From Candidatus Competibacteraceae bacterium (GTDB lineage: Bacteria; Bacteroidota; Bacteroidia; CAIKAF01), in contig JACSSC010000022.1 in NCBI GenBank assembly GCA_014879445.1, forward strand, positions 1 to 64,000: a stretch of DNA of 64,000 nucleotides. The letters are read 5' to 3'. A model generated the notes under the pieces. It was not told the DNA's origin. It saw only the letters and a program-made list of their open reading frames with translations, and did not search any database. Shown here in pieces: positions 35,903-54,852 of this stretch. A program made the translations under genes and the position numbers. Positions within the stretch are counted from its first letter, which is position 1; every line of letters starts with the position of its first letter.

Positions 35903-38338
35903 ATGCCTAAAAATCTGGTAATTGTAGAATCTCCGGCTAAGGCCAAAACCATCGAAACATACCTTGGGAAGGATTATGTTGTCAAATCAAGTTTCGGCCA
36001 TGTAAGGGATTTGTCAGAAAAAGGTATTTCTGTTGATGTTGAAAATCATTTTGCTCCTGAATATGTTGTACCATCAGACAAGAAGAAGGTTTTGTCTGAA
36101 TTAAAAAAGATTGCACAGTCGGCTGAATTGGTTTGGCTTGCATCTGATGAGGACCGAGAAGGGGAGGCCATTGCCTGGCATTTGGCGGAGGCATTGGAAC
36201 TAAAGAAAGAGAAAACACGTCGTATTGTTTTCAACGAGATTACTAAAACGGCAATAATGAAGGCCATCGAAAATCCTCGTGGAATTGATTATAACTTAGT
36301 GAATGCCCAACAAGCAAGACGAATACTCGACCGTTTGGTAGGATACGAATTGTCGCCGATTTTGTGGAAAAAAATCAAGCCCTCTCTTTCTGCTGGCAGG
36401 GTACAATCAGTTGCTGTTCGGTTAATTGTTGAACGCGAACGAGAACGCACGGCCTTTCAGGTACTGTCGTATTACCGTGTTGTAGGTGTTTTCTTGGCCG
36501 GAGAAAAAACCTTTAAGGCAGAACTTAGTCAACGATTTGATAATAAGCAGCAAGCACTTGATTTTCTTAACGATTGCTTAGGCGCAACTTTTCCAGTACA
36601 TCAAATTGAAAAGAAACCCGGTATAAAAACGCCGGCAGCGCCTTTTACAACTAGTACTTTACAGCAAGAAGCAAGTCGAAAATTAGGATATTCTGTTGCA
36701 CGTACCATGCAGTTGGCTCAACGCCTTTACGAAAGCGGTAAGATTACTTATATGCGAACCGACTCTGTTAATATGTCAGATTTTGCACTGCAATCAGCGT
36801 CGCAGGCCATTCAAAGTATGTTCGGAGAAAAATACCACAAACGCCGGCAGTTTGCTACTAAGTCGAAAGGAGCTCAGGAAGCTCATGAATGTATCCGTCC
36901 TGTTGATATGAATATTACTTCTGCCGGATCCGATAATGCAGAATTGAAATTATATGATTTGATTTGGAAACGTAGCATTGCTTCTCAAATGAGTGATGCC
37001 CAACTCGAAAAAACAATTATTACAATTAAAACCCCCCGTACGGATTTACATTTTGTGGCTCGTGGAGAGGTTATTACTTTTGATGGTTTCCTTAAAGTAT
37101 ATATGGAAGGCAACGACGAGGATGAAGAAGAATCGGATGACCAAAATTTACCTGTAGTGCGTACGGGCGATTTAGTACAAGCTCGTGAAATTGTAGCAAC
37201 TGAAAGATTTTCCCAACCACCGTCACGCTATACCGAAGCCAGCTTGGTGAAAAAGTTAGAAGAATTGGGTATAGGTCGTCCATCAACCTATGCACCAACC
37301 ATTTCTATAATTCAAAATCGTGGATATGTTGTTAAGGAAGAACGCCCAGGAACCACTCGTTCATATCATGTTATTACTTGTGCTTCCTCACAGGTGAAAG
37401 AGGTAATTCGCGAAGAAGTTACAGGTGCCGAAAAAAATAAGCTCTTTCCAACTGATATAGGCGCATTGGTGAATGATTTCCTGGTTGAACATTTTAAAAA
37501 TGTACTTGATTATCATTTTACGGCTTCGGTTGAAAAGGAATTTGATGAAATTGCTTCGGGAAACCTGAAATGGGAAAAAATGATTGGTGCTTTTTATAAT
37601 CCCTTTCATCAGATTGTGGAAATTACTGAGAAAACATCATCCAAGGTTACTGGAAAACGTGAATTAGGTATTCATCCTGCTGACGGAAAACCTGTTTATG
37701 CCTTAATCGGACGCTTTGGCCCCATGATACAGATTGGCGACATGAACGAAGAAGAAAAACCACGCTATGCCAGCTTGCGTAATGGCCAAAGTATAGAGAG
37801 CATCTCCTTAGATGAAGCATTGGAATTGTTTAATTTACCTCGTAAGGCCGGTATTTATGAAGGGAAGGAAATCACTATCGGTATTGGCCGATTCGGTCCC
37901 TATGTAAAGCATGACAATGTTTTTGCATCCATTCCGGCAGGATTGGACCCATTGGAAATTACAACAGAACAAGCCATTGATTTTATCATTCAAAAACGTG
38001 AAGCCGTGCAAAACAGAATCATTCACCAATTTGTAGGAACAGATATTCAGGTTTTGAAAGGTCGTTTTGGCCCATACATTGTTCAGGGTAAACTCAATTA
38101 CCGCATTCCTAAAGGCACAGATGCACAATCCCTTACCATAGAAGAAGTTCAATCCATCATTTCTCAATCACAACCTACCGGTAGGTCAGCCAAAAAAGAA
38201 GCAGCTAAAAAAGAAAAATCTGTAAAGAAATCTGACACAAAAAAGAAGGTGAAAAATAAAACAGGTTCAGCCAAACCCAAATCGGCTGCCAAAGAATCAA
38301 CCCCAAAACCGGCTGCTAAGAAAAAATCAGCGAAGTAA
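35903..38338 (+). CDS. topA: DNA topoisomerase I
   Basis: Type IA topoisomerase that relaxes negative supercoils, 811 residues. The Toprim domain begins PKNLVIVESPAKAKTIETYL and includes SDEDREGEAIAW (acidic metal site). The catalytic Tyr lies in GKITYMRTDSVNMS. The core ends near FDEIASGNLKWEKMIGAFY. Instead of zinc fingers, the C-terminus has repeated topoisomerase C-terminal units (IGRFGPMIQIGD, IGIGRFGPYVKHD, LKGRFGPYIVQGK). A strongly basic Lys/Ala-rich tail (about 755-811) follows, probably for nonspecific DNA binding. It starts a run on the plus strand leading to the T9SS operon. Confidence 0.97.
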   Translation: MPKNLVIVESPAKAKTIETYLGKDYVVKSSFGHVRDLSEKGISVDVENHFAPEYVVPSDKKKVLSELKKIAQSAELVWLASDEDREGEAIAWHLAEALELKKEKTRRIVFNEITKTAIMKAIENPRGIDYNLVNAQQARRILDRLVGYELSPILWKKIKPSLSAGRVQSVAVRLIVERERERTAFQVLSYYRVVGVFLAGEKTFKAELSQRFDNKQQALDFLNDCLGATFPVHQIEKKPGIKTPAAPFTTSTLQQEASRKLGYSVARTMQLAQRLYESGKITYMRTDSVNMSDFALQSASQAIQSMFGEKYHKRRQFATKSKGAQEAHECIRPVDMNITSAGSDNAELKLYDLIWKRSIASQMSDAQLEKTIITIKTPRTDLHFVARGEVITFDGFLKVYMEGNDEDEEESDDQNLPVVRTGDLVQAREIVATERFSQPPSRYTEASLVKKLEELGIGRPSTYAPTISIIQNRGYVVKEERPGTTRSYHVITCASSQVKEVIREEVTGAEKNKLFPTDIGALVNDFLVEHFKNVLDYHFTASVEKEFDEIASGNLKWEKMIGAFYNPFHQIVEITEKTSSKVTGKRELGIHPADGKPVYALIGRFGPMIQIGDMNEEEKPRYASLRNGQSIESISLDEALELFNLPRKAGIYEGKEITIGIGRFGPYVKHDNVFASIPAGLDPLEITTEQAIDFIIQKREAVQNRIIHQFVGTDIQVLKGRFGPYIVQGKLNYRIPKGTDAQSLTIEEVQSIISQSQPTGRSAKKEAAKKEKSVKKSDTKKKVKNKTGSAKPKSAAKESTPKPAAKKKSAK

Positions 38339-38423: not shown

Positions 38424-39602
38424 ATGAGTTGGGAAAATTATTTTGAACCCGTGTCCGGTTATGTGATGTCGGAAGATTACAACAGCAGTCGTTATTCATC
38501 CAATATCCTTTCGTATGAAGCAGGCAAACCATTTCCAGATATCGAAAATCAGCCCATTGATATTGTAATCATCGGCGCAGGTTACGATCAATATGATTTG
38601 TCATGTAGCATAACCCAAACCCCTGATAATGTTAGATATTGGCTTTATCGGCTTTATAAAGGAAATTATGATGTGCGAATTGCCGATTTCGGAAACCTCT
38701 CTATCCGAAATTCTTTAGATAAAGTCGTAGAGATTCTATCTGAAATACTCGCCGATTTAATGAATAGAGGAATCACTCCCATCGTCATTGGCGGAGGTAA
38801 AGAGCTTACTTATGCACACTACTTAGCATATAAAATAAGAGGCAAATACTGCAATTTGCTGAACATAAGCTCAACACTCAATTTTAATGAAGCCACAGAC
38901 GAACTCACTGCAGAGAATTTTTTAAGTAAAATTTTGGCTGATAAAGACAATCATCTTTTTAATTATTGCCAATTGGCTTATCAAACCTATCTCAATTCGG
39001 CTGAAATGATTGATATGTTTAATCGTTTTGACTTTGATTTGTTGCGATTGGGCGAAGTGCGTGCTCATATTGCCGAATCAGAACCCCTCATTCGAGATGT
39101 TGACTTTGCATCGGTAGATCTCGGGTCGGTTAAATATGCCGATGCGCCCCATACTTTGTTTGTCAGCCCCAACGGACTTACAAGTGATGAAATTTGTCGC
39201 TTGGTTCGATATGCCGGCCTCAGTTCCAAACTATCTTCTATTGGATTTTATGGCATTACACCAGGCGGAAAGTTAGAGTGGACAGACCATCATCTGATGG
39301 CTCAGGTTATTTGGCATTTTATTGAAGGATTTTATTTGCGCAAACCTGAAAGTTTGCATCTTGACGATCCGCTTTATATCCGATATCACGTTGCATACAG
39401 TAGCTCGCCCGACGAAATCATCTTTTATCATAACACATTCACAGAAAAATGGTGGATGAATGTGCCTGTAAGTATCGAAAAACAGGGCAAATATCAAATT
39501 CATAATTATCTGATCCCTTGTTCATCAAGAGATTATCAAACCGCTGCCAAAAACGAAGTCCCAGACCGTTGGCTTAAAATATTCAGAAAATTAAATGATT
39601 AA
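38424..39602 (+). CDS. Ureohydrolase-fold protein lacking metal ligands, next to T9SS genes
   Basis: A 392-residue protein related to arginase/formimidoylglutamase. The fold landmarks are present (PIDIVIIGAGYD, TPIVIGGGKELTYAHYLAYK, SIGFYGITP). The manganese ligands are gone: GGDHS reads GGGKE (123-127), DAHxD is replaced in NISSTLNFNE (about 147-156), and DxDxxDP is replaced in FASVDLGSVKY (228-238). A C-terminal extension (about 308-392, with EKWWMNVPVSIEKQGKYQI) is not part of ordinary ureohydrolases. Metal-dependent hydrolysis is therefore very unlikely. It lies 140 bases upstream of porP/sprF. A structural or regulatory role in or near T9SS is a hypothesis. Automated pipelines may call it formimidoylglutamase, which I would not accept. 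Confidence 0.85.
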   Translation: MSWENYFEPVSGYVMSEDYNSSRYSSNILSYEAGKPFPDIENQPIDIVIIGAGYDQYDLSCSITQTPDNVRYWLYRLYKGNYDVRIADFGNLSIRNSLDKVVEILSEILADLMNRGITPIVIGGGKELTYAHYLAYKIRGKYCNLLNISSTLNFNEATDELTAENFLSKILADKDNHLFNYCQLAYQTYLNSAEMIDMFNRFDFDLLRLGEVRAHIAESEPLIRDVDFASVDLGSVKYADAPHTLFVSPNGLTSDEICRLVRYAGLSSKLSSIGFYGITPGGKLEWTDHHLMAQVIWHFIEGFYLRKPESLHLDDPLYIRYHVAYSSSPDEIIFYHNTFTEKWWMNVPVSIEKQGKYQIHNYLIPCSSRDYQTAAKNEVPDRWLKIFRKLND

Positions 39603-39742
39603 ATTTAATTACCTGATATTGTAGTATTTAGCCATTAGTATTAAAATTTCTTAAACAAATGTTTGGAAGAAATAAGAAAAATTTTTCTTACATTTACGTT
39701 TTGAACAGTGTGTGTAATGACGAAAGCAGATATAGACAACGT

Positions 39743-40717
39743 ATGAAAAAACTTGTATTCTCAACCCTTTTAATTGGAATGACAGTAATTGCGAATGCCC
39801 AGCAGGATCCGCAGTTTACACAATTTTTTAATAATAAATTGATTATGAATCCCGGATACGCAGGCGCCAAAGATGCGATTTGTATAACCATGTTAAGCCG
39901 CTTTCAGTGGGTGGGCTTTGATGGTGCGCCTACATCTGCATTGCTTTCAGGTGATGCTCCGGTTTGGAATAAAGGTAACAACCAAATAGCTGTTGGACTT
40001 ACAACCTATTTAGATTATATTGGTTTTGAGAAAAATTATGCCATGCGAATTGCAGGTACTTATCGTCGCAAAAACTTAGGACCCGGCCATTTAGCGGTTG
40101 GTTTTGACGTTGGATTTTCTAACAAAGGTATATCGAATCCTACATGGATTTATCCAAGTGGTATGCCTGATCCCAATATTCCGGCATCCGGCTCTTCATT
40201 AAACAACTTTGGTTTAGATTTAGGTTTGGGTGTGTATTATCATACAGATACTTGGTATGCAGGTATTTCAGCATTGCATCTTACCGGATCAGAGTTCACA
40301 GATATTAATATACGTCAGGCCCGTCATATGTTCTTTATGGGCGGTTATACATTCAAAAGCATAGCAGGTTCTGATTTCGATTTGAATCCCAATGTGTTGA
40401 TAAAGACAGAATTTGCTACTGCACAATTTGATGCCAACTTAAATGTAATTTGGCGTGAATTCTACTGGGGCGGTCTTACTTATCGTATTCAGGATGCCAT
40501 TGCGATTAATTTGGGGATGAATTTTGGAGCGATTACCCCCAAGCTTAATGGATTGCAAATTGGTTATTCATACGATATAAATACATCACGATTGAGTTCA
40601 TTTAATACAGGAAGCCATGAGATTATGCTTCGTTACTGCTTCAGTTTGAAGAAAGAACAAGAAATTATCCGCCGTTACAATGTGCGTTTTATGGATTATA
40701 ACAAAGACCGTTTCTAA
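39743..40717 (+). CDS. porP: PorP/SprF family type IX secretion outer-membrane protein
   Basis: An outer-membrane beta-barrel of the PorP/SprF family, 324 residues, that anchors the T9SS or links secreted adhesins to it. The ATG at 39743 gives a signal peptide (MKKLVFSTLLIGMTVIANAQ) followed by the diagnostic QDPQFTQFFNNKLIMNPGYA and GAKDAICITMLSRFQWVGFD. The open frame upstream to 39659 is not protein-like. The C-terminus is GSHEIMLRYCFSLKKE. It directly precedes gldK, as is common for the PorP belonging to the secretion machinery. Confidence 0.93.
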   Translation: MKKLVFSTLLIGMTVIANAQQDPQFTQFFNNKLIMNPGYAGAKDAICITMLSRFQWVGFDGAPTSALLSGDAPVWNKGNNQIAVGLTTYLDYIGFEKNYAMRIAGTYRRKNLGPGHLAVGFDVGFSNKGISNPTWIYPSGMPDPNIPASGSSLNNFGLDLGLGVYYHTDTWYAGISALHLTGSEFTDINIRQARHMFFMGGYTFKSIAGSDFDLNPNVLIKTEFATAQFDANLNVIWREFYWGGLTYRIQDAIAINLGMNFGAITPKLNGLQIGYSYDINTSRLSSFNTGSHEIMLRYCFSLKKEQEIIRRYNVRFMDYNKDRF

Positions 40718-40826
40718 AATCAATACCTAATATACAGAATTACAGATTAAAAATAAAAATCATAAAATAATATAAATGAGGAATCGTTTATATACAGAAG
40801 ATAAATTCGCCAAAAACAACAAGAAC

Positions 40827-42206
40827 ATGAGAAAACTAGTGTTAATCACCGGAGTAATTTGGTTTCTGGGTAGCTGTAGCGGAGGTTACAACGGCCAGCT
40901 AATCGGAGTACAAGGCCGTCCTAAATGGTATCAGGCCGACCCATTCGGAATGGTCTATCTTCCCATGGGTAGCTACAATATGGGTGATAGTGATCAAGAA
41001 GTGCCTCAGGCATTCCTTTCTCCCAGTAAAACAGTTTCAGTTCAGGCATTCTACATGGACCAAACTGAAATTTCAAACAACGAGTACCGCCAGTTTGTGA
41101 ATTATGTTAGGGACTCTTTGGCTCGTACAATTTTAGGAGAAAACTATGACGAAGAGCGATTCTTTATTTCCGAAAATGATTATGAGGAGGAAATAGATCC
41201 ACCTTTGTTGAATTGGAAAACTAAAATTAAATGGGATGATCAGGAACAGCGCGAAGCGCTTGAGGAATTGTATTATCCGGAAGATCAACGCTATATGAGA
41301 AAGCGTGAAATTGACGTTAATAAGCTAGTATATACTTATTGGTGGATTGACCTCGTTGAAGCTTCTAAATACAAGTATCGTGATACCCGTTATGAATCGG
41401 AAAAAGGCATCAATGGGAAAGACGATAAAACTTATTATAATCAATACACTGGGCCTGCTTCGGGTTCGCCTACTCGTCAGGATCGTCGTACATTCATCCG
41501 CAAAGAAATGGTGAATATCTATCCTGATACCTTGGTTTGGATAGCAGATTTTGAATATTCTTATAATGAGCCCATGACTAAAATGTATTTTTGGCATCCT
41601 GCTTATGATAACTATCCTGTCGTAGGAGTAAACTGGCATCAAGCTAATGCATTTTCTCATTGGAGAACGGAGTTGATGAATAATTATTTGGTGTCTAACG
41701 ACGATTTTCCTGTACATGATTTTCGTTTGCCTACCGAAGCTGAATGGGAATATGCTGCTCGCGGAGGTTTGGATTTAAGCCCATATCCTTGGGGAGGCCC
41801 TTACATCCGTAATTCAAGAGGATGTTTCCTTGGCAACTTTAAACCAATGCGTGGTAATTATATTGACGATGGAGGTTTTCATACGCTGCCCGTTGATTCA
41901 TACAATCCCAACGATTATGGATTGTATTGTATGGCAGGAAATGTGTCAGAATGGACAGCCGTAGCCTTTGAAGAGTCGGGTTATTCCTTTTCTCATGACC
42001 TAAATCCAGACCTTAAATACGAAGCCAAAGCTTCTGACCCTCCCGTTCTTAAACGTAAAGTTATACGTGGCGGCTCGTGGAAAGATGTAGGATATTATTT
42101 ACAAGTGAATAGTCGCTTGTTTGAATATCAAGATACATCAAAAAGTTACATAGGATTTCGTTGCGTACAAACCTTTATGGGGCGTGATAAATCCGACTTT
42201 AATTAA
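40827..42206 (+). CDS. gldK: Gliding/T9SS lipoprotein GldK (PorK)
   Basis: Outer-membrane-attached periplasmic lipoprotein that forms the T9SS ring with GldN. The ATG at 40827 gives a lipoprotein signal, MRKLVLITGVIWFLGSCSGG, with Cys17; the open frame starts earlier at 40776 but that would hide the signal. The mature protein is a formylglycine-generating-enzyme-like fold: VYLPMGSYNMGDSD, QAFYMDQTEISNNEYRQFVN, DFRLPTEAEWEYAARGG, GLYCMAGNVSEWTA and KVIRGGSWKDVGYY. 459 residues is normal for GldK. It is the second gene of porP-gldKLMN. Confidence 0.96.
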   Translation: MRKLVLITGVIWFLGSCSGGYNGQLIGVQGRPKWYQADPFGMVYLPMGSYNMGDSDQEVPQAFLSPSKTVSVQAFYMDQTEISNNEYRQFVNYVRDSLARTILGENYDEERFFISENDYEEEIDPPLLNWKTKIKWDDQEQREALEELYYPEDQRYMRKREIDVNKLVYTYWWIDLVEASKYKYRDTRYESEKGINGKDDKTYYNQYTGPASGSPTRQDRRTFIRKEMVNIYPDTLVWIADFEYSYNEPMTKMYFWHPAYDNYPVVGVNWHQANAFSHWRTELMNNYLVSNDDFPVHDFRLPTEAEWEYAARGGLDLSPYPWGGPYIRNSRGCFLGNFKPMRGNYIDDGGFHTLPVDSYNPNDYGLYCMAGNVSEWTAVAFEESGYSFSHDLNPDLKYEAKASDPPVLKRKVIRGGSWKDVGYYLQVNSRLFEYQDTSKSYIGFRCVQTFMGRDKSDFN

Positions 42207-42300: not shown

Positions 42301-43095
42301 ATGAAATTTTTGTTTAAAAGCAAGACGGGCAAACAGATTATGGGAATGGTTTATGGTCTGGGCGCCGCAGTGGTTATTGTAGGAGCATGGGCAAAAATCC
42401 TCCACCTCCCCATTGCCAACATTATGATTACGGTAGGTCTTCTTACCGAAGCGTTTATTTTTGCCATTTCGGCATTCGAACCCCCACATGAGGACTTAGA
42501 TTGGTCATTAGTGTATCCTGAATTAGCCGGTGACAAATCAACCGACAAAAAGGATAAGAAAAAAGGCATTGTTAAAGATCCGGTAGCACAAGAATTGGAT
42601 AAGCTTTTGACCGATGCTAAAATTGGTCCGGATTTAATTCAGAGTTTGGGTGATGGTATGCGTAAACTAAGCGAAAGTACAAGCAGTTTAGGTCAGGTTG
42701 TTGACGCCGGCTCTGCAAATAATGAATTTGTAACGAACATCAAATCTGCTGCTACAAATGTTAGCAAATTATCAGAATCGTATGTAAAAGCTTCTGAATC
42801 GCTTACAGCTATTTCGAATGCAGATGGCCAAAACTATGGAGAACAATTACAGCGTGTTTCTAAAAATCTTTCTACGTTGAATTCTGTATATGAATTGCAG
42901 ATTCAGGGAACTAAAGAATATGTTGAATCAAGTTCCAAAGCATACAGCAATATTACTGAATTACTGGGGCATCTTAATGCCTCTGTTGAAGACACCAAAC
43001 GCTACAAAGAAGAAATTCATGTATTAGGTCAAAACTTGTCTGCATTGAATACAGTATATGGTAATATGTTGTCAGCCATGAATGTTAACCGTTAA
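42301..43095 (+). CDS. gldL: Gliding/T9SS motor protein GldL (PorL)
   Basis: Inner-membrane stator-like protein that, with GldM, converts the proton gradient into T9SS energy. It is 264 residues. Two transmembrane helices lie at about 12-34 (QIMGMVYGLGAAVVIVGAWA) and 38-58 (IANIMITVGLLTEAFIFAIS). Glu50 in the second helix matches the essential Glu of characterised GldL motors. The C-terminal cytoplasmic part (about 90-264) is helical and probably coiled-coil, with ESTSSLGQVVDAGSANNEF and later repeats of Leu/Ser-rich helices. It is followed by gldM after 40 bases. Confidence 0.96.
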   Translation: MKFLFKSKTGKQIMGMVYGLGAAVVIVGAWAKILHLPIANIMITVGLLTEAFIFAISAFEPPHEDLDWSLVYPELAGDKSTDKKDKKKGIVKDPVAQELDKLLTDAKIGPDLIQSLGDGMRKLSESTSSLGQVVDAGSANNEFVTNIKSAATNVSKLSESYVKASESLTAISNADGQNYGEQLQRVSKNLSTLNSVYELQIQGTKEYVESSSKAYSNITELLGHLNASVEDTKRYKEEIHVLGQNLSALNTVYGNMLSAMNVNR

Positions 43096-43135: not shown

Positions 43136-44776
43136 ATGGCATCAGGTAAACAAACACCACGGCAAAAGATGATCAACATGATGTATCTCGTGTTGACGGC
43201 TCTTTTGGCTTTGAACGTATCTAAAGAAATCCTCGATGCATTTGTGGTTGTAAACATTGGGTTATTACAACAAAAACAAAACATCGAGCAGAAAAATGGC
43301 AGTTGGTATGCAGAATTTCATAACCAGGATGAAATCGTTAATAAAGGGAAAAATCCCCGCGTTAAGGATTTGAATGAAAGGGCTAAGAAAGTACGCACCT
43401 ATGCTGATGATATCAGTGCATTTATTTATTCCATGAAAAGGGATTTGGTTAAACAGGTTGATGGCGCTCCTACCGATGATGAGGCCGACAATCGTATTGC
43501 CAATCCTGGATTAGTGAGTAAAAAAGATGACTACGATAAACCTACACACTACTTTGGCGCCGAACCAGATAGAATTGACAAAGGCAAAGCCAGGGAATTG
43601 AAGAATAAATTGAACGATTACAAATCCGCTTTACTCTCTTTAGTTGACGAGAAGCACAAAGCTATCATGGAAGAACGATTGGCGCTTTTAAACACGCCTG
43701 ATCCAACCCCCGATGATCCGGCATACAAGAAAGACGGAAAGAAAACATGGGAGATGAAATATTTCTATCACTTACCTCTTTCGGCTGCATTGGTTGAGCT
43801 AACCAAATGGGAAAACATTGTGAAAGGTGCTGAATCTGAAATGTTGACACATTTTTGGGATCAGATTTCCGCCACAGCGTTTAAGTTTGATGCGGTTGAA
43901 GCTAAAGTGATACCTAAATCAAACTTTGTTATTTCCGGTTCTAATTTTGAAGCCGAAGTGTTTTTGGCAGCTTATAGCACATCGTTCAAACCTACTATAA
44001 TTTATGGTACTGCTGTTGATTCTTTAACGATGAATGTGGCAGGTGCTACGCAATTAGATTCTACTCTTATTGTTAATGGCAAAGGTTTGGTTTCTATTCC
44101 TGCTTCCGGCCAAGGTGAACGAACTTTTGCCGGTGTTATCAAGATGATAGATCCGAAAACACAGAAGGAAACATCTTATCCATATTCTACAATGTATAAT
44201 GTATCACCACCTTCAGCTACTGTTTCGCCAACTAAGATGAATGTGTTTTATCGTGGATTGGATAACCCCATTTCTGTTAGTGTACCTGGTGTCGCACCTA
44301 ACAATATTGTTGTAAGCGGAACCGGAATTTCTGGATCAAATGGTAATTACATTGTTAGGCCAGGAGCCGGCAACGAAATGACCATTACAGTTTCAGCAAA
44401 AATGCCTGATGGCAAGACCGCCAGTATGGGTAGTTTTAAATTCCGTGTAAAACGTGTACCCACACCTACTGTTATTTGGGCTAATCAGGCAAATGGAGGA
44501 AAAGTAGCTGCCAATGCAGGTGCTGCTTCTCCACTGATTCCACGTATGGACGATTTCGATTTTGATGTATATTCTACTATTCGCTCTTTTGATGTTGCCT
44601 TTAATCTGAATGGTTCTTACTATTCCAAATCATGTCAGGGTAACACCATACCGGGCGAAGTAAGTGATAAGATTCGCAGATTACCTAAAGGGACTAAGGT
44701 ATATTTTGATAATATCAAGATGTCTATTCCGGGTAATGAAACCCGAACAGCAAACGCAGTATTCACTATAAACTAA
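43136..44776 (+). CDS. gldM: Gliding/T9SS motor protein GldM (PorM)
   Basis: Inner-membrane-anchored periplasmic shaft of the T9SS motor, 546 residues. It begins GKQTPRQKMINMMYLVLTAL with a single transmembrane helix (about 16-33, MMYLVLTALLALNVSKEIL), followed by the N-terminal helical periplasmic domain. The later beta-rich domains contain AVEAKVIPKSNFVISGSNFE, PTKMNVFYRGLDNPISVSV and the end domain with MDDFDFDVYSTIRSFDVAF. The length and domain order match GldM in other Bacteroidota. It lies 6 bases before gldN. Confidence 0.96.
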   Translation: MASGKQTPRQKMINMMYLVLTALLALNVSKEILDAFVVVNIGLLQQKQNIEQKNGSWYAEFHNQDEIVNKGKNPRVKDLNERAKKVRTYADDISAFIYSMKRDLVKQVDGAPTDDEADNRIANPGLVSKKDDYDKPTHYFGAEPDRIDKGKARELKNKLNDYKSALLSLVDEKHKAIMEERLALLNTPDPTPDDPAYKKDGKKTWEMKYFYHLPLSAALVELTKWENIVKGAESEMLTHFWDQISATAFKFDAVEAKVIPKSNFVISGSNFEAEVFLAAYSTSFKPTIIYGTAVDSLTMNVAGATQLDSTLIVNGKGLVSIPASGQGERTFAGVIKMIDPKTQKETSYPYSTMYNVSPPSATVSPTKMNVFYRGLDNPISVSVPGVAPNNIVVSGTGISGSNGNYIVRPGAGNEMTITVSAKMPDGKTASMGSFKFRVKRVPTPTVIWANQANGGKVAANAGAASPLIPRMDDFDFDVYSTIRSFDVAFNLNGSYYSKSCQGNTIPGEVSDKIRRLPKGTKVYFDNIKMSIPGNETRTANAVFTIN

Positions 44777-44782
44777 AACAAT

Positions 44783-45643
44783 ATGAAGAAGCCGGCATTT
44801 ATCATCATCTTTGCAGTTGTACTACTTGCTTTGGGCTGGCAGTCATCCCAGGCACAGGTTTTATCACCCACGCCACGCGATGGCGTGTATGACAAAATAC
44901 ATTATCCCAATCGTAGGGTAGTGCCTTATTCTTTTCTTAGAGAAGCTGACGTAATGTTTGCAAGGCGTATTTGGCGTAAGATTGATCTTCGTGAAAAAAT
45001 CAATCAGCCATTATATTATCCAACTGTGCCAACCAATCAGCGTAAAAACCTGATTACGTTACTTATGGATGCTCTTCTTACAGAGCAATCTATTAAGGCA
45101 TATACCACTGATTTGGATGATTTTAGGGCTGAAATGACTTCTGCTGAGGTTGCCAATATTGGGGTAAGTCGCGATTCGCAACAGCTTCAACGGCCATATC
45201 CACCATACGACTGGTATGATACAGTACTTGTTACCACATTTGATCCAACAAACGTAAAAACGTATAAAATCAAAGAGGACTGGATATTTGATAAACAACG
45301 CTCTGTATTAGAACCTCGCATCATTGGTATTTGTCCGGTTATGAATGTTTATGACAAAAATACTGGTGAGTTTAGAGGGTTTCAGGATATGTACTGGCTA
45401 TATTTCCCAGAGGTTAGAAAAGTTCTGATTAATGAAGAAGTGTATAATCCCTACAACTTTGGTCAGCGTCTTACTTATGATGATGTATTTATGAAACGTC
45501 AGTTTAGCAGTTTGATTTATAAAGTGGATAACACTTACGACCGCCGTATTGATGAATATATCAAAGGTATAGATGCCCTGCTTGAAGCTGAAGATATTAA
45601 AACACAACTTAAAGATTTTGAACATAATTTATGGGAGCAGTAA
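44783..45643 (+). CDS. gldN: Gliding/T9SS protein GldN (PorN)
   Basis: Periplasmic partner of GldK in the outer-membrane-associated ring, 286 residues. A signal peptide (KKPAFIIIFAVVLLALGWQS, then SQAQ) precedes the mature protein. Family segments are VVPYSFLREADVMFARRIWR, KIDLREKINQPLYYP and YDDVFMKRQFSSLIYKVDNT. It is the last gene of the operon and is followed 21 bases later by a strong terminator. Confidence 0.95.
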   Translation: MKKPAFIIIFAVVLLALGWQSSQAQVLSPTPRDGVYDKIHYPNRRVVPYSFLREADVMFARRIWRKIDLREKINQPLYYPTVPTNQRKNLITLLMDALLTEQSIKAYTTDLDDFRAEMTSAEVANIGVSRDSQQLQRPYPPYDWYDTVLVTTFDPTNVKTYKIKEDWIFDKQRSVLEPRIIGICPVMNVYDKNTGEFRGFQDMYWLYFPEVRKVLINEEVYNPYNFGQRLTYDDVFMKRQFSSLIYKVDNTYDRRIDEYIKGIDALLEAEDIKTQLKDFEHNLWEQ

Positions 45644-45707: not shown

Positions 45708-47166
45708 ATGAAAAAGCTTTTACCTCTTATCATTTGTATGTTGTTTGCTAGATTATCAGTTCAGTCACAGGATTGGTTAGGTTATCATTCCAGCACATAT
45801 GCAGGCATTCAGGGGGTACATGTCAACCCTGCACTAATTACTGGTTCGAATTATAAAAAGTTTGACATCAGCATTGTGGCAGCTCATGCCAATTTTTCCA
45901 ATGATTTTTTATTTTTTGATGCAGCAACAATTACTGATTTTTCTTTGTTTGGCGCATCCGATTTCATGAATTTGTATGTACGACAAAATCTCAACGGTGC
46001 ACAAAAGAATGCTATGCTAAATGCCCAGGTGCAAGGGCTGGCATTTCTTTATCAATTTACGATATATGATGCCATAGGATTTTCTCCAAGAGCCCGTTTT
46101 TTTGCCAATATTGATAGAGTTGAACAACACATGGCCCAACTGATGTAGAAGAATTAGATTTTCCACCTAACTGGCATCAAACCATTGAAGCCGATTTTAT
46201 GAGTGCAACGGCACATGCATGGATGGAGTATGCCGTATCGTATGCACGTATTATTTATTCTGATGAGCATCATTCTTTCAAAGGAGGAATAACCGCCAAG
46301 CTATTGCAAGGACTTGGTGCCGGTTATCTTACATTTAATGATTATCGCTATCAATTTCATAATGATGAATGGATGGGGGTTTATGATAGTTATGGGCAAT
46401 TCGGCATGAGCCAAAATCTTGAGGATGGTGAGTTTGTTTTTGATTTTGTGGGCGGCCCGGGCTTTGGTGTAGATATTGGTTTTACATATGAATATCGAGA
46501 GCCCGAAATAAATCGAAAAGGCCTTTATGGCACACGTCGCAAAGATCAGGTTAAAAATTTCGGCATCTTAGCAGGCGATGAAACCAAATACAAGTTAAAG
46601 GCAGGTATTTCATTCAATGATATCGGAGGAATGTCATATAATAAGTCACAAAACAGTCGTGATTTTTATGCGAACAATGACTCGCTAAATCTGCATGCAT
46701 TCAATCCCGTAAATTCACCCGGAACATTTGCACAAACCCTACAAACTGTATTTTTTTCTTCAGCATCCAACCAATCCTCATATTTTATGGATTTGCCTAC
46801 ACATATCCATTTGTTTTTTGATTATCGTTTTAGAAAAGGGTTTGCTCTACATACCTCGCTGATGTTGTCTTTTAATCATGGAACCATTGATCCTACCAAA
46901 AATCATTATCTGTATCAGTTAGCCATCACGCCCAGATGGGAGTCAAAATGGTTTGGCGTTTATATGCCCTTGTCATTTAACGAATATCTGCTTTATAATC
47001 TGGGTATCTCATTCAGATTGGGGCTTTGGTTGTTGGCACAGGAGATATTTTGGGTACGCTCATGAAAAGAGAGTATGCTAGCTTAGATTTGCACATGGGA
47101 TTACGCTTGATTATTCCCAAGAAAGCACCAAAATCAAACCGATCAAAGTGTCCAGCATATTTGTAA
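45708..47166 (+). pseudogene. DUF5723-type outer-membrane protein, interrupted by two frameshifts
   Basis: The first frame (45708-46148) encodes a signal peptide and a beta-barrel-like start (MKKLLPLIICMLFARLSVQS, then YAGIQGVHVNPALI). A TAG at 46146 cuts it, but the next frame continues the same protein (DVEELDFPPNWHQTIEADF) to about 47020. A third frame then gives VVGTGDILGTLMKREYASLD and ends at 47166, restoring the usual end of the family. Each shift equals one missing base, at GGCCC (46133-46137) and near GGGGC (47019-47023). Read together the protein would be about 480 residues and lie in the outer membrane. Either the gene is dead or the assembly has two homopolymer errors. Function of the family is unknown. 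Confidence 0.8.
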
Positions 47167-47235: not shown

Positions 47236-48624
47236 ATGACAACAATAATCGTAGTAATTTTTATCCTTGGCTATTTGGCCATTACACTTGAGCATCCGTT
47301 AAAGATAAACAAAACAGCTCCTGCTTTGTTGACTGGGGTTTTGGTTTGGACAGTGTATGCAGTTTTTAATCCAACTGAGGGAATTTTGGCTTCAGAAGGG
47401 TTTCAGCATTTTCTATACAATTTTCAGATAGAAAGTCCGAATTTATTTAATGGGGCTAGCCCGCATGATTTATATGTGCATTATGTGGGGCATCAATTAA
47501 GTCACCATTTAGGCAAAATATCTGAGATTTTGTTTTTTCTTCTAGGCGCAATGACCATTGTAGAGTTGATTGATTCGCATCAGGGATTCAAGGTGATTAC
47601 AAACCGAATTACGACTACCGATACACGTAAGTTGCTATGGATTCTTTCAATCATTACATTCTTTATGTCTGCTGCACTAGATAACCTTACAACCTCCATA
47701 GTAATGGTTTCTTTGCTCAGAAGGTTGGTTCATAATGTTGACCAGCGAAAATTTTTTGCCGGAGTTGTTATTATTGCAGCCAATGCTGGAGGGGCATGGA
47801 GCCCTATTGGCGACGTAACGACCACGATGCTTTGGATTGGCGGGCAAATATCAGCTGGTAATATTATTGTTACACTTATTATTCCAAGCTTGATATGCTT
47901 GATAGTTCCTTTGGTTTTTTTGTCATTCAGATTACGGGGTAAGGTTGAGCGTGCAGAATATGATTATGAAGGCCAGCGCAAAGTTGAAAAAGTAAAAGGA
48001 AGTCGTATCATGTTTTTTGCCGGGCTGGGAGCATTGCTTTTTGTGCCCGTATTTAAAACACTTACTCATTTGCCACCCTATTTAGGGATGTTACTTGGAT
48101 TGGGTGTGTTGTGGGTGTTATCTGAAATCATACATAAAGACGAAGATGAAGAGGAAAAGAAACATTATACAGCGATTCATGCCTTAACACGCATTGACGT
48201 GCCCAGTGTTTTGTTTTTCCTTGGCATTTTGGTAGCAATCAGCGCACTTGAATCAACACATATATTAACTCATTTGGCAGAATGGATGGATCATACCATA
48301 GGTAATGAGGATGTTATTGCAATTGCCATTGGTTTAGCATCATCTGTAGTAGATAATGTGCCGTTGGTTGCTGCTGCGCAGGGTATGTATGATATGTCGG
48401 TATATCATATGGATCATAAACTTTGGGAGTTTATTGCCTATACAGCCGGAACGGGTGGTAGTGTTTTGATAATTGGGTCAGCAGCAGGAGTAGCTGTAAT
48501 GGGTATGGAAAAGATTGATTTTTTCTGGTATATCAAACGCATCAGCTTACTAGCTTTGCTAGGTTTTTTTGCCGGCGCTGCAGCATATATGGTCATTCAT
48601 CCTTTATTTGCAGTTGCACATTAG
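47236..48624 (+). CDS. nhaD: Na+/H+ antiporter NhaD
   Basis: Inner-membrane sodium-proton antiporter of the ion transporter superfamily, 462 residues. About eleven or twelve hydrophobic segments are visible, for example TTIIVVIFILGYLAITL at the N-terminus and ISLLALLGFFAGAAAYMVI at the C-terminus. Family motifs include SAALDNLTTSIVMVSLLRRL, AANAGGAWSPIGDVTTTMLW and ASSVVDNVPLVAAAQGMYD. A charged loop (KDEDEEEKKH, about 298-307) lies between membrane segments. It has its own promoter and stands alone; sodium export and pH control are the expected roles. Confidence 0.95.
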   Translation: MTTIIVVIFILGYLAITLEHPLKINKTAPALLTGVLVWTVYAVFNPTEGILASEGFQHFLYNFQIESPNLFNGASPHDLYVHYVGHQLSHHLGKISEILFFLLGAMTIVELIDSHQGFKVITNRITTTDTRKLLWILSIITFFMSAALDNLTTSIVMVSLLRRLVHNVDQRKFFAGVVIIAANAGGAWSPIGDVTTTMLWIGGQISAGNIIVTLIIPSLICLIVPLVFLSFRLRGKVERAEYDYEGQRKVEKVKGSRIMFFAGLGALLFVPVFKTLTHLPPYLGMLLGLGVLWVLSEIIHKDEDEEEKKHYTAIHALTRIDVPSVLFFLGILVAISALESTHILTHLAEWMDHTIGNEDVIAIAIGLASSVVDNVPLVAAAQGMYDMSVYHMDHKLWEFIAYTAGTGGSVLIIGSAAGVAVMGMEKIDFFWYIKRISLLALLGFFAGAAAYMVIHPLFAVAH

Positions 48625-48670
48625 GAGGATAGCAATACATTAAAACAATATTTCATACATCAAAATTCAA

Positions 48671-48678
48671 TATATTTG
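48671..48678 (+). promoter_or_regulatory. -7 element (TATATTTG) before porV2
   Basis: TATATTTG matches TAnnTTTG and ends 11 bases before the ATG at 48690, implying a leader of only a few bases for the porV2-porU2 transcript. Confidence 0.5.
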
Positions 48679-48689
48679 TAGATTGATGT

Positions 48690-49784
48690 ATGAACCTTAG
48701 GATATCCATTTTAATAATCATTTTTAATCCTTTCCTGTGTGAGGCGCAGGTAAACAAGTATGCGAATGCCTTTTTGGACATAGGGATTGGAGCCAGGTCG
48801 TTGGGAATGTCGAATGCGGTTTCGGCATCGTTGGAAGATGTTAGCTGCGGATACTGGAATCCTGCGGGTTTACCATATATGCAACGCGATATTCAGGTTG
48901 GTTTTATGCATAATGAGCATTTTGCCGGTATCGTTAAGTTTGATTATGGCGGTGTGGCTGTTAAGTTTAATGAGAAAAGCGCAGGGGCCTTTACATTTAT
49001 TCGTAGTGGGGTTGACGATATCCCCAACACACTCGAACTAGTTGATGCCAATGGTAATGTAGATTATGACAGAGTGAAGAGTTTTTCGGCAGCCGATTAT
49101 GCATTTATGCTTAGTTATGCACGCACAATACCCAAAGTAAAAGGATTAAGTTATGGAGGTACCCTTAAGGTGATTTACCGCCATATTGGAGAATTTGGAA
49201 GTGGATGGGGTTTTGGTTTCGATTTTGGTGCCCGATATAAACTAAAAACCTGGACTTTTGCTGCTACGCTTCGCGATGCTACTTCTACCATTACAAACTT
49301 TAGCTATAATACCGAAAAATTTCGTCTAGTTTTTACGGCTACCGGCAATGAAGTTATATCAAGTTCTACCGAAATTGCGGTACCTAAATTAGTATTGGCA
49401 ACATCCAAACATTTTAATTTGCCCAAGAAATTCAGAATTCTTACAGAAATTGATATTGCCATGACAACAGATGGACGTCGTAATGTGCTGATACCGGCAG
49501 GTCCAGTGAGTTTCGACCCCTGTGCAGGGGTCGAATTTGAATATAACGATTTAGTATTTATTCGTGCCGGCGTAGGACGTTTTCAATATTTGAAAGATCC
49601 TGAAGGTGGAAAAAATCTGACAGCCCTGCCAACGATTGGGTTGGGATTTAAATATTGGGGTATTAGTGTAGATTATACACTTGCTAATTTTGGCAATAGT
49701 ATTGTGGGAATGTCGCACGTTTTTTCTCTGCGTGTTGATTTTAATAAAAAGAAAAAAGATGATGCACCTGAAGCGAAACCATAA
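48690..49784 (+). CDS. porV2: PorV/PorQ-family outer-membrane protein (PorV2-type)
   Basis: A FadL-like outer-membrane barrel of the T9SS PorV/PorQ family, 364 residues. The signal peptide is MNLRISILIIIFNPFLCEAQ. Family features are the start YANAFLDIGIGARSLGMSNA, then VSCGYWNPAGLP, and KVIYRHIGEFGSGWGFGFDF. Members shuttle cargo from the translocon to the sortase PorU. The placement directly before a large C25 protease points to the second-type PorV2/PorU2 pair rather than the main PorV, but this is inferred. It overlaps the next gene by 26 bases. A 24-base palindrome lies inside its coding region. Confidence 0.88.
   Translation: MNLRISILIIIFNPFLCEAQVNKYANAFLDIGIGARSLGMSNAVSASLEDVSCGYWNPAGLPYMQRDIQVGFMHNEHFAGIVKFDYGGVAVKFNEKSAGAFTFIRSGVDDIPNTLELVDANGNVDYDRVKSFSAADYAFMLSYARTIPKVKGLSYGGTLKVIYRHIGEFGSGWGFGFDFGARYKLKTWTFAATLRDATSTITNFSYNTEKFRLVFTATGNEVISSSTEIAVPKLVLATSKHFNLPKKFRILTEIDIAMTTDGRRNVLIPAGPVSFDPCAGVEFEYNDLVFIRAGVGRFQYLKDPEGGKNLTALPTIGLGFKYWGISVDYTLANFGNSIVGMSHVFSLRVDFNKKKKDDAPEAKP
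49512..49535. repeat. 24-base inverted repeat inside porV2
   Basis: TTCGACCCCTG and CAGGGGTCGAA flank the bases TG, giving two perfect 11-base arms with almost no loop. It is in frame within porV2 and encodes FDPCAGVE. Such long perfect arms are unlikely by chance in 64 kb. Confidence 0.7.
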
Positions 49785-52700
49785 CATCATCACACAAACG
49801 ATTTTATGTTTATCGTTGTTTTTTGCGATATCAGCCAGTCGTGTGAATGCACAATACGCCAATTCATGGATTCAATACAATCAGTCGTATTACAAGTTTG
49901 CTATTGCACAGGATGGCGTATATCGTATTCCGTACACTTCATTGCAAAATGCAGGAGTTCCGGTTGGAAGTATTAATCCACGCAATATTCAGGTTTTTGG
50001 GCGCGGACAGGAAATTCCGATATTTATTCAGGGCGAAGGCGACGGAATATTTGACCCTACTGATTATATTGAATTTGTTGGTCTGAGAAATAATGCTTGG
50101 CTCGATACTGCATTATATCTCAATGTAGAGCATCATATTGCCAAAGGCCGCAGCTTGTTTTCTGATACATCTTATTATTTTATTACTTGGAATTCTTCAA
50201 TCGGTAATTTGCGATATACATCCGAAACGGATAATGCATTTTCTTCTTTCACACCGGCCATTTTTTATTATGCCGATATTGAACAGGAATATTCTTCTTC
50301 ATATTACGAAGGCCCGATATATGGGGGCGGTAAACTTAACCCAGATTTCGATATTGGCGAAGGATGGGCGCAATTATACAATTCAGCAACTACCGTATCT
50401 CCGGGTTGGATAGCGCCATTTCTTGCTTACCGAGCAACCACTTATGCTGGAGCAAATGCGACACTTTGGATTCATGCCATTACAGGAAACAATCCCTTAG
50501 GTACGGCAGAACACCGACACCAACTTACGTTTGGCGGCTCAGTAGTTATGGATACAATTCTTGACGGTTATCATGCATACAAAAAAACGACAAGCATGCC
50601 TGCCGGTCTTGTGTCAGCGGCTTCTTCGCCCTTCACCCTCGACTTTATGTCCACATTTACTTCTTCGGTTCGCTCTGGTATATCATATGTTAAGATTCGT
50701 TTGCCACAGGTCTATAATTTGGGTGGACGAAGCAAGCAGTTTTTACTTATTCCTGACGAAACCTCGCAATCTAAAGCACGGCTTGATATCAGCAATTTCA
50801 ACCCTGGCGGAGGAAATGTTTGGTTATATGATTTGACCAATCGAAGGCGAATTCATGTGTATAGCGGCGGCCCCGGATATCAATCATTGATACCCAACGG
50901 ATCGGGTATTAAAACCTGTTATATTTCAGCCGAATCTCAAATCCAGTCGGTAGCAGTGCTGCGACCTGTTAGTGCTTATCCGTCATCTTATGCACGATTT
51001 TTAGATTATCAAAACACATTTCGTGATTTTGACTATCTTATTGTATCTCCTTCGGTATTGCGGTCTTCAGCATTAGCATACAAAAATTACAGACAACAAA
51101 CAGGGTTTCATTCGTTGCAAATTGATATTGAGGAATTATACGATCAATTTGCGTATGGCATACCTAAACATCCGATGGCCATTCGGAATTTTCTTCAGAT
51201 GACATTGAATGAGTGGACATTGAAACCCGAACATTTGTTTTTAATAGGCAAAGGCATTCGCAACACCCTTGTCAATCCCAATGCAGGCAATTATGCCACA
51301 CAATATCAATCTAATTTACTTCCTCCTATTGGAGTTCCTCCGGTTGATCATCTATACGGATTTAGGATATTGGATATGGATGGAGAGAGTATTGCCATTG
51401 GGCGATTGGCTGCCAACAACAACCAGCAGGTATTCGATTATCTCAATAAAGTGCAACAACAAGAAGGAAATATTCCGGCGCTTTGGATGAAGAATATTCT
51501 GCATTTGGGCGGTGGAGGAACCCTTTCAGAGCAATTGCAACTCGAAGGTTATCTCAATGGATTTAAATCTATTATCGAAGATTCGCTTTTTGCCGGCAAA
51601 GTATATACCATTCTTAAACAAAGTTCGCAGCCCATGCAATTGGCATTGGCCGATTCAGTTCGAAAACTCATCAACGAAAATGGCGTATCTCTCATCACCA
51701 TTTTTGGTCATGGTAGCGGGCAGGGATTTGATCAAAATATAGATGAACCACAGAATTATTACAATATAGGCAAGTATCCTGTGATCATTGCCAATTCATG
51801 TCTTTCAGGAGATATATTTCAAACCGTTCCGCTCATTAGCGAAAAGTTTGTATTTGAACCGAACAAAGCGGCTATTGCTTTTATTGCATCACCTGCACTG
51901 GGCATTTCTTCATTAATGAAAATACTTGCAGATTCGATTTATACCAATTTATCGCTGCATGATTATGGACAAACCATAGGTTTTGCTATTCGAAATGCGA
52001 TATCAGAAGTAGCACAGGGAACATCTTTTAACTCCATTTTGCGATTTACGGCATTAGAGCCGCAAATACACGGAGATCCTGGGCTACGCCTCAATAGCTG
52101 GATAAAGCCCGATATTGCCATTACTCAACCCGATGTGCGTTTTATTCCGGCTTTGGTTACCAGTGAATTGGATTCTTTTGAGATGGAAATTGTTATGCAT
52201 AATCTAGGGCGTTATGTATCATCGCCTGTTTTGTTAAGCGTGCGACGTGATTTTCCACGTCAAGGCGTACCGGATACGGTTTATTATTTTACGCGTACCG
52301 GATTATTTTATTCTGACACCATTCGATTTAAGCTGCCTGTAAACATTGTTAATAGCTTTGGCGAAAATATCTTTACCGTTACGGCCGATCCGTTTGCTCA
52401 GATTATCGAAATGAATGAAATGAATAATGAAGTGGTTGCGAAACTAAATATTCTTTCATCAGAAATTGTTCCCGTGTATCCTTTCAAATTTCAGGTTGTA
52501 CCTGCTTCTTCTCTTTTTCTTAAAGCATCAACCGGCGATCCGTTTGCTGCTTTGAAGAAATACAAAATACAGATTGATACAACAGATTTGTTTAACAGCC
52601 CATTTCTTCGCGATACGATTATCGAACAAACGGGCGGTGTCGTTAAATGGAAACCGCCATTTTCGTTTACCGATAGCACAGTGTATTTTTGGCGTACCGG

Positions 52701-54852
52701 CGTTGATTCAGCGCAAACCGGTAGTTTCTACCGTTGGAAAGAAAGTTCTTTTCAGTATATCATTGGAAAGTATGGATGGGGGCAAGATCATTTTTTCCAA
52801 TTTAAAGATGATGCCTACCTCTATATTGAAGACAATCGTAGTACACGTACTTTTGAATTTGTTCCCAACATCAAACAACTGAAATGCATTACATATCCGG
52901 TATTGCAGCCCGGTGATTGTTGCCAGTTCAATTCAGAATATAGCATTGACGGGGCTGTGCAGGAGGAAGGAACCGGCCCTGCGCCATGTGGCTTTAATCC
53001 CGGACTTTATCTGGCAGTAATTGACCCTATCACGCTTGAGCCATGGGGGACACGATGTGCCGGACAAAATCCCCTCAATAGTTTTGGTAATGCCAACGAC
53101 AACTGCCAGTGCTATGCCCGCGTTTCCAAGTATTTCTTTTATAATCTGAATGACGGAATACAGCGCGCTGCATTAGAAAATTTTATAACCAACATTGTGC
53201 CGGATGGCCATTTCCTTCTTGCATACACTAATCATACACCTCCATTTTATAATCCATCTTTTTGGCCTAATTCTTTAGTTACCGCATTTGAAAATATGGG
53301 TGCCGACACACTACGCACTTTGGTTGATAGTGCATATTCACGTTCTTATATCTTTTTTACACGCAAGGGAGATAATAGCACAACCTTGGAAGCTGTTGGA
53401 CCAACAGCAACCCAGCCGGCCGAGCTGATTGCATATTTGCAAAATGATTGGATGTATGGAACCATTACATCGCCACTGATAGGTCCGGCCAGTAGATGGG
53501 GATCTTTTCACTGGAATACATTCAGCATTGATGCCAATCCGTTCAACGATTCTGCATTTGTAAATATTATTGGTGTAAAACCCGACGGGCAGCAGGATAT
53601 TTTATACAGTCAGGTACAGCCCAATGTTACTTCAATACCTGATTTATACAACAATATTGATGCATCGGTTTATCCGTATCTGAAACTTTTTATGTTTACT
53701 CGCGATGATGCCACGCTTACACCCACACAATTAGATAGCTGGCATGTATTGTACGAAGGTGTACCCGAAGCGGCACTAAATCCTTCCATTCAGTATAGCT
53801 TTTATCAGGATACCTTGCAGCAGGGTGACGATTTACGATTGATTACAGCACTTGAAAATATTGGAGATTATCCGATGGATAGTTTATGGATGCATTATTT
53901 TATTATTGATAAAAATAATCAGATACACCATTACTATCAGAAAAATGATTCGTTGAGAGTAGGCGCATTTATTGTTGATACGTTCAAAACATCTACGGTT
54001 TCGTATCCCGGCTTGAATAGCTTATGGATAGAAGCAAATCCAATTAATCATCCTTCGCACCAACTTGAACAGACACACTTTAATAATATTGGTCAGAAAC
54101 TTTTTATGGTTGGTACCGATAAAGCCAACCCGTTGCTTGATGTTACATTTGATGGGGTGCATATTATGAATGGCGACATCGTTTCAGCTAAGCCCGATAT
54201 TTTGATTCAGCTTAAAGACGAAAATCAATTACTTTGGATGGATGATACCTCAGATGTTGAGATATATTTGCGAAAACCCGGTGTTTCAACTCCCGTTAAA
54301 TTACATTTTTCTGGCTCTGATTTAATTTTTCATCCAGCCACCAATAGCGAAAACTATTGTCGCATTGAGTATCGTCCCGACTTTACCAATCAAGATGGTA
54401 TGTATGAGTTGCTGCTTCGTGCTACCGACAAATCCGGCAACATGTCGGGCATAGGTAATGGGTCGTATGATTACAATATACAATTTGAAGTTATCAATCA
54501 ATCAACTATTACACACGTTTTGAATTATCCTAATCCTTTTTCCACCTCTACACAATTTGTTTTTACACTTACCGGTTCGGAATTGCCTACAGAATTTACG
54601 ATTCAGATATTAACCATCAGTGGCATTGTGGTGAGGGAAATTACACTTAATGAGTTAGGACCTATTCATATCGGGCGCAATATCACATCATTTCGTTGGG
54701 ACGGTACCGATGAGTATGGCGATAAGCTGGCAACAGGCGTCTATATTTATCGCGTGATAGCAAGGTTAAACGGTGAATCAATTGAGCGAAAACAAACTAC
54801 AGCCGACAAGTATTTCAAAAACGGATTCGGCAAAATGTATATTATGCGATAA
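49759..54852 (+). CDS. porU2: C25-family sortase-like cysteine protease of T9SS (PorU2-type)
   Basis: A very large secreted protease-like protein of 1,697 residues. Start ATG ATG at 49759 is chosen for the following signal region (TILCLSLFFAISASRVNAQ); the open frame upstream lies inside porV2. The N-terminal domain has YYKFAIAQDGVYRIPYTSLQ, as in PorU proteins. The C25 (gingipain-like) catalytic dyad is visible: His651 in IFGHGSGQGFDQ and Cys681 in IIANSCLSGD. Several beta-sandwich domains follow. The C-terminus has NYPNPFSTSTQFVFTLTGSE and DKLATGVYIYRVIA, an Ig/T9SS sorting-type domain. It is longer than the main sortase PorU (about 1,150-1,300 residues), so PorU2 is favoured. It would cut cargo signals or attach cargo at the cell surface. 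Confidence 0.87.
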   Translation: MMHLKRNHNIITQTILCLSLFFAISASRVNAQYANSWIQYNQSYYKFAIAQDGVYRIPYTSLQNAGVPVGSINPRNIQVFGRGQEIPIFIQGEGDGIFDPTDYIEFVGLRNNAWLDTALYLNVEHHIAKGRSLFSDTSYYFITWNSSIGNLRYTSETDNAFSSFTPAIFYYADIEQEYSSSYYEGPIYGGGKLNPDFDIGEGWAQLYNSATTVSPGWIAPFLAYRATTYAGANATLWIHAITGNNPLGTAEHRHQLTFGGSVVMDTILDGYHAYKKTTSMPAGLVSAASSPFTLDFMSTFTSSVRSGISYVKIRLPQVYNLGGRSKQFLLIPDETSQSKARLDISNFNPGGGNVWLYDLTNRRRIHVYSGGPGYQSLIPNGSGIKTCYISAESQIQSVAVLRPVSAYPSSYARFLDYQNTFRDFDYLIVSPSVLRSSALAYKNYRQQTGFHSLQIDIEELYDQFAYGIPKHPMAIRNFLQMTLNEWTLKPEHLFLIGKGIRNTLVNPNAGNYATQYQSNLLPPIGVPPVDHLYGFRILDMDGESIAIGRLAANNNQQVFDYLNKVQQQEGNIPALWMKNILHLGGGGTLSEQLQLEGYLNGFKSIIEDSLFAGKVYTILKQSSQPMQLALADSVRKLINENGVSLITIFGHGSGQGFDQNIDEPQNYYNIGKYPVIIANSCLSGDIFQTVPLISEKFVFEPNKAAIAFIASPALGISSLMKILADSIYTNLSLHDYGQTIGFAIRNAISEVAQGTSFNSILRFTALEPQIHGDPGLRLNSWIKPDIAITQPDVRFIPALVTSELDSFEMEIVMHNLGRYVSSPVLLSVRRDFPRQGVPDTVYYFTRTGLFYSDTIRFKLPVNIVNSFGENIFTVTADPFAQIIEMNEMNNEVVAKLNILSSEIVPVYPFKFQVVPASSLFLKASTGDPFAALKKYKIQIDTTDLFNSPFLRDTIIEQTGGVVKWKPPFSFTDSTVYFWRTGVDSAQTGSFYRWKESSFQYIIGKYGWGQDHFFQFKDDAYLYIEDNRSTRTFEFVPNIKQLKCITYPVLQPGDCCQFNSEYSIDGAVQEEGTGPAPCGFNPGLYLAVIDPITLEPWGTRCAGQNPLNSFGNANDNCQCYARVSKYFFYNLNDGIQRAALENFITNIVPDGHFLLAYTNHTPPFYNPSFWPNSLVTAFENMGADTLRTLVDSAYSRSYIFFTRKGDNSTTLEAVGPTATQPAELIAYLQNDWMYGTITSPLIGPASRWGSFHWNTFSIDANPFNDSAFVNIIGVKPDGQQDILYSQVQPNVTSIPDLYNNIDASVYPYLKLFMFTRDDATLTPTQLDSWHVLYEGVPEAALNPSIQYSFYQDTLQQGDDLRLITALENIGDYPMDSLWMHYFIIDKNNQIHHYYQKNDSLRVGAFIVDTFKTSTVSYPGLNSLWIEANPINHPSHQLEQTHFNNIGQKLFMVGTDKANPLLDVTFDGVHIMNGDIVSAKPDILIQLKDENQLLWMDDTSDVEIYLRKPGVSTPVKLHFSGSDLIFHPATNSENYCRIEYRPDFTNQDGMYELLLRATDKSGNMSGIGNGSYDYNIQFEVINQSTITHVLNYPNPFSTSTQFVFTLTGSELPTEFTIQILTISGIVVREITLNELGPIHIGRNITSFRWDGTDEYGDKLATGVYIYRVIARLNGESIERKQTTADKYFKNGFGKMYIMR

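Follow-up and report, generated by a model that had tools for sequence, protein, structure and literature searches.

The gene at positions 38424–39602 (+ strand) of the window, the whole 64,000-nucleotide stretch of DNA analysed here, encodes an arginase-fold protein of a monophyletic family that has lost ligands of the two-metal centre, is under purifying selection, is nearly universal in the class Bacteroidia and is linked to topA and gldKLMN. We consider it about an even chance (probability roughly 0.5) that the protein represents a class-wide cytosolic pseudo-ureohydrolase with a binding role, usually housed with genes of the secretion system T9SS and not dedicated to that system.

The open reading frame, which begins with ATG, specifies 392 amino acids, and no signal peptide is apparent in its translation, indicating a cytosolic protein. 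Residues 1–306 (38424–39341, + strand) form an arginase-fold domain. Pfam Arginase (PF00491) matches residues 46–280 with 45 bits against a cut-off of 22, which places the protein in the superfamily, and the hutG profile TIGR01227 scores 50.5 bits against an equivalog cut-off of 229.15, too low for assignment to HutG. An AlphaFold2 model, computed from 55 sequences comprising the window protein and public ones, reached a mean pLDDT of 91.3 and a pTM of 0.92. Its best solved match in Foldseek was T. cruzi formiminoglutamase (4mxr; E 9.6e-18, TM 0.78 on the target), and B. subtilis HutG was also among the best solved matches. Profile, model and structural match together confirm the proposal of the initial annotation that the arginase fold is kept. 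The HutG enzymes (B. subtilis 3m1r; T. cruzi 4mxr) share the three-layer fold of the window protein and are its best structural and profile matches, whereas the window protein differs from them in scoring below the hutG cut-off, in having lost metal ligands and in carrying an extra C-terminal domain of about 85 residues.

Metal ligands were mapped by alignment with 20 metal-retaining relatives from the same phylum, using arginase numbering (H101, D124, H126, D128, D232 and D234). At the corresponding positions the window protein has K126, S149, T151, N153, D232 and G234; five of the six binuclear-metal ligands are lost, leaving one of six. K126 (38799–38801) replaces H101 of the GGGHD/E motif, S149-x-T151-x-N153 (38868–38882) replaces the DxHxD ligands, and D232-L-G234 (39117–39125) replaces the DxD ligands, with D232 kept and D234 lost. 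G277 (39252–39254; all four features on the + strand) takes the place of the substrate-pocket glutamate E277, which is Glu in 129 of 180 family members. Replacement of all the manganese motifs, as originally described, therefore holds for every ligand except D232. Across the 180 family members, zero to four of the six ligands are kept and no member has all six, compared with five or six in the 20 relatives. Exactly three are kept in 139 members, mostly D124, D128 and D232 (retained in 159, 153 and 167 of the 180, respectively); typical members lack H126 and D234 and mostly have Gln in place of H101. Ligand loss is therefore fullest in the window's own lineage, typical members keeping three. 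Because no family member has all six ligands, the usual two-metal hydrolysis is most unlikely in any of them. In most members a single-metal or ligand site is possible, though less so for the lineage to which the window belongs, and typical members could still perform some chemistry via one metal ion held by three acids and Gln. Binding of a guanidino metabolite, another early suggestion, is still possible for the family, most members of which keep pocket acids; it is less likely in the case of the window protein, from which D149, D153 and E277 are also lost.

The C-terminal stretch of about 85 residues (residues 307–392; 39342–39599, + strand) forms a separate small alpha/beta domain in the structure model, with F334, W343, W344, C366, Y371 and P380 invariant in the family alignment. 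This extension, correctly noted from the start, occurs in 179 of 180 family members, whereas the metal-retaining relatives lack it. No Pfam family covers the domain, and its isolated model gave no Foldseek match to a solved structure better than E 1.3; profile comparison yielded a weak resemblance to spectrin SH3 (E 0.07). Assignment to a known fold was rejected, as there was no convincing match in Pfam or the PDB. Members of one family, f29 (L081, L082 and L084), are short with a very diverged arginase half, and profile matches to them cover only about residues 184–388, hinting that the C-terminal half may be the better conserved part.

The pseudo-ureohydrolase was found in 371 of 396 class genomes (completeness 95% or more), in 38 of 40 relatives and, in a phylum sample, in 70 of 74 same-class genomes, the window's own counted. 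Matches outside the class were mostly shorter and, where read, were ordinary metal-retaining relatives. In the tree, all family members fell on one side of a branch separating them from the 20 metal-retaining relatives (SH-aLRT 100). Spread on plasmids was also considered and rejected, since a single distant agmatinase-like match was all that the search returned. When the window gene was compared with homologues from the same genus, pS was 0.79–0.83, which is saturated, and the nonsynonymous value was 0.12–0.19; over all pairs tested, genomes without SprA included, pS was about 0.76–0.91 and pN only 0.06–0.23. Both domains also contain residues that are invariant in this family and particular to it, W343, W344, C258 and C366 among them. 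These results establish a maintained pseudoenzyme under strong purifying selection, as had been supposed. In the genome G900 (family f28), an extremely diverged form, a 400-aa reading frame (L214:3358–4557; 44 bits), occupies the conserved position between topA and gldK; fast divergence can therefore hide members from searches.

In the window, the pseudo-ureohydrolase gene is flanked by topA (35903–38338), encoding DNA topoisomerase I and a conserved upstream neighbour also in the loci of relatives, and by porP-gldKLMN, which it directly precedes on the same strand, as first reported. The downstream genes encode a PorP/SprF-family T9SS membrane protein (39659–40717, a signal peptide suggesting a start near 39743), GldK/PorK (40776–42206; TIGR03525, 583.6 bits), GldL/PorL (42301–43095; TIGR03513, 234.8 bits), GldM/PorM (43136–44776; TIGR03517, 323.4 bits) and GldN/PorN (44783–45643; TIGR03523, 222.8 bits); these genes and topA are all on the + strand. 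Matches to the Bacteroidota promoter motif between the genes were no better than chance, and no RNA elements or tRNAs were found in the window. The gene after gldN (45708–47065) is split into two open reading frames of 146 and 288 amino acids; its product resembles an outer-membrane protein and matched no family, and their junction near 46140–46200 resembles a frameshift or a broken gene. Beyond the gldKLMN operon, positions 47236–54852 hold an nhaD antiporter gene followed by genes for PorV2 (NF052325) and PorU2 (NF052324); the T9SS cluster is therefore larger than the initial annotation states.

For linkage across lineages, at least one representative was read from each of 45 family groups. 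T9SS genes lay within the flank in 34 of these families, topA was a neighbour in 33, and eight had neither link. The order topA, pseudo-ureohydrolase gene, porP, gldK was found in nearly all relatives. In f28, porP is absent from this spot and gldK directly follows the gene, and in f29 the gene belongs to another T9SS cluster, porU-porP-gldJ-murF, in which murF was identified from the start of its sequence. Inspection of neighbourhoods across Bacteroidota had been proposed as a check, and the linkage to T9SS genes proved real and class-wide. Among 80 public genome contigs, 26, some of them cut by contig ends, had topA beside the gene without adjacent gldK; the topA link is therefore at least as tight as that to gldK. 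In several lineages without a T9SS link (L063, L070–L072, L224 and L226), a divergently transcribed NAD-dependent epimerase gene adjoins the pseudo-ureohydrolase gene; its conservation as a neighbour in f2, f26 and f27 was considered as a clue and suggested no function.

The gene and GldL were both present in 364 of the 396 class genomes, the gene only in 7, GldL only in 18 and neither in 7 (Fisher p 4e-6, computed without regard to shared descent). Thus 18 of the 382 GldL-positive class genomes, from seven families and all SprA-positive, do not carry the gene, and in three of them that were read no equivalent gene was found upstream of porP. Five of the seven gene-only genomes have GldM; in G358 the gene is at a contig end, and in G481, the one genome of genus g31 covered by the GldM test, GldL, GldM and SprA were all undetected. 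All 46 genomes of g31 carry the gene. GldL is missing from three of these, and a profile search left SprA undetected in 18 of 32 tested, many of these SprA-negative genomes keeping GldL. Loss of T9SS is thus not accompanied by loss of the gene: g31 retains it without SprA. The copies from genomes without SprA are intact and conserved like the others (G1046 versus G1014, 88% amino acid identity with synonymous sites saturated), and because of this the protein evidently serves a purpose under selection even in genomes that lack the T9SS translocon. No informative joint loss of T9SS and the gene was found among the class genomes: f33 is without the gene even in genomes that have T9SS, an assembly gap is likely in G964 because SprA is present there, and G492 is an uninformative reduced genome of 1.2 Mb. 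The idea of an undescribed T9SS factor is therefore supported as to linkage and not supported as to a role dedicated to T9SS. Presence in many genomes without T9SS had been named in advance as speaking against it, and g31 comes close to that situation.

These data bear on several explanations. A dedicated cytosolic T9SS factor, which would dock on the GldL motor at its cytosolic part or control GldKLMN expression or assembly, perhaps in response to a metabolite, would account for the linkage to porP-gldKLMN, for the position next to murF within the porU-porP-gldJ locus in f29, for the persistence of a very diverged 400-residue reading frame between topA and gldK in G900 and for the co-occurrence with GldL. 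The repeated linkage to T9SS, the second one in f29 included, fits such a role better than a general one. However, with SprA- and GldL-positive genomes of seven families lacking the gene, no substitute 5' of porP in the three that were read, 18 genomes keeping an intact gene without detectable SprA, and f33 gene-less with or without T9SS in the absence of any informative joint loss, we regard this dedicated role as rather doubtful. It is unlikely, though conceivable, that this dead ureohydrolase, with a C-terminal domain not described before, is a cytosolic sensor or assembly factor through which a metabolite signal reaches the GldL/GldM motor; such a factor may have escaped notice since formimidoylglutamase is its top profile match and since the gene seems to be missing from some of the T9SS lineages studied most closely.

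Catalysis of another kind was weighed as well. The retention of D124, D128, D232 and E277 in most members would suit a repurposed enzyme with one metal at the H101 (mostly Gln), D124, D128 and D232 positions, a different reaction and a pocket shaped by the C-terminal domain, and even in T. cruzi formiminoglutamase the counterpart of His101 is Asn (N114; an N114H variant appears in PDB titles). Yet D124, D128 and E277 are lost in the window's lineage, where selection persists; metal chemistry therefore cannot be the function common to the whole family, and we find this explanation improbable. Still less probable is an inactive subunit of a hetero-oligomeric ureohydrolase on the pattern of the metformin hydrolase MetCa/MetCb. 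MetCb, a metal-free arginase-family protein, is a functional binding subunit (PMC11271267), and MetCb/MefH-beta resembles the window protein in having lost the metal centre within the arginase family and in acting as a binding partner, showing that such a pseudoenzyme can be an obligate one (PMC11271267, PMC11399263). Unlike MetCb, which is encoded beside its active partner, the window gene has no adjacent paralogue, and its C-terminal domain differs. No second, active arginase-family gene lay beside it in any locus read, so a MetCb-like partnership with an adjacent paralogue was rejected; at E 1e-10 the window genome yielded a single match, whereas several genomes with the true enzyme gave two. 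A decaying pseudogene or functionless passenger of the topA operon might be suspected from the lost catalytic residues and the adjoining topA, but the purifying selection refutes a pseudogene, and with reading frames of full length in almost every lineage, residues invariant in this family alone and a gene retained where neither topA nor T9SS is adjacent, the chance of either is close to nil.

The class-wide, non-dedicated pseudo-ureohydrolase that we favour would have arisen once, from an active formiminoglutamase-like enzyme, with loss of the two-metal hydrolytic centre and gain of the conserved C-terminal domain. It would no longer hydrolyse guanidino or formimino substrates and would work by binding, as a scaffold or sensor. 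The former active-site pocket, with three acids kept in most members, may serve as a site for a ligand or for a single metal; the C-terminal domain, rich in Trp, may provide a docking or oligomer surface. Co-expression with T9SS is probable in most lineages, and the protein may assist T9SS while its core role would be wider.

Pseudo-ureohydrolases as a kind are already known, and the Bacteroidia family is a variant. Hai et al. reportedly described, in 2015, a Trypanosoma brucei arginase-like protein without a manganese cluster (cited in PMC11271267). That protein is similar in maintaining the ureohydrolase fold without the binuclear centre; to judge from the title of the paper, it is different in being eukaryotic and of the arginase branch, and it is not known to have a comparable extra domain or secretion-gene linkage. 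The pseudo-ureohydrolase shares a genomic locus with the T9SS components (PorP, GldKLMN, SprA and PorX/PorY) in most families, but differs from them in being absent from some T9SS-positive lineages and present without SprA. A full-text search of open PMC articles, outside which most subscription journals and preprints lie, yielded no article connecting gldK or T9SS with formimidoylglutamase or any arginase-family protein, and none on this pseudo-ureohydrolase family.

A gene close to core in an entire bacterial class thus resembles an enzyme that its protein almost certainly is not, and a metabolic model in which it is labelled formimidoylglutamase would be in error whether or not it serves T9SS. 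If it does, T9SS, about whose regulation little is known, would gain a new cytosolic participant; otherwise the gene would mark a class-wide cellular function so far unnamed. Genomes with T9SS and no gene, and genomes with the gene and no T9SS, offer natural comparisons. In g31, G041 (L223) and other genomes keep gldK, gldL, gldM and gldN in a rearranged, divergent order (gldLM versus gldNK), and G041 is a complete genome without detectable SprA, in which T9SS motor genes occur without the translocon.
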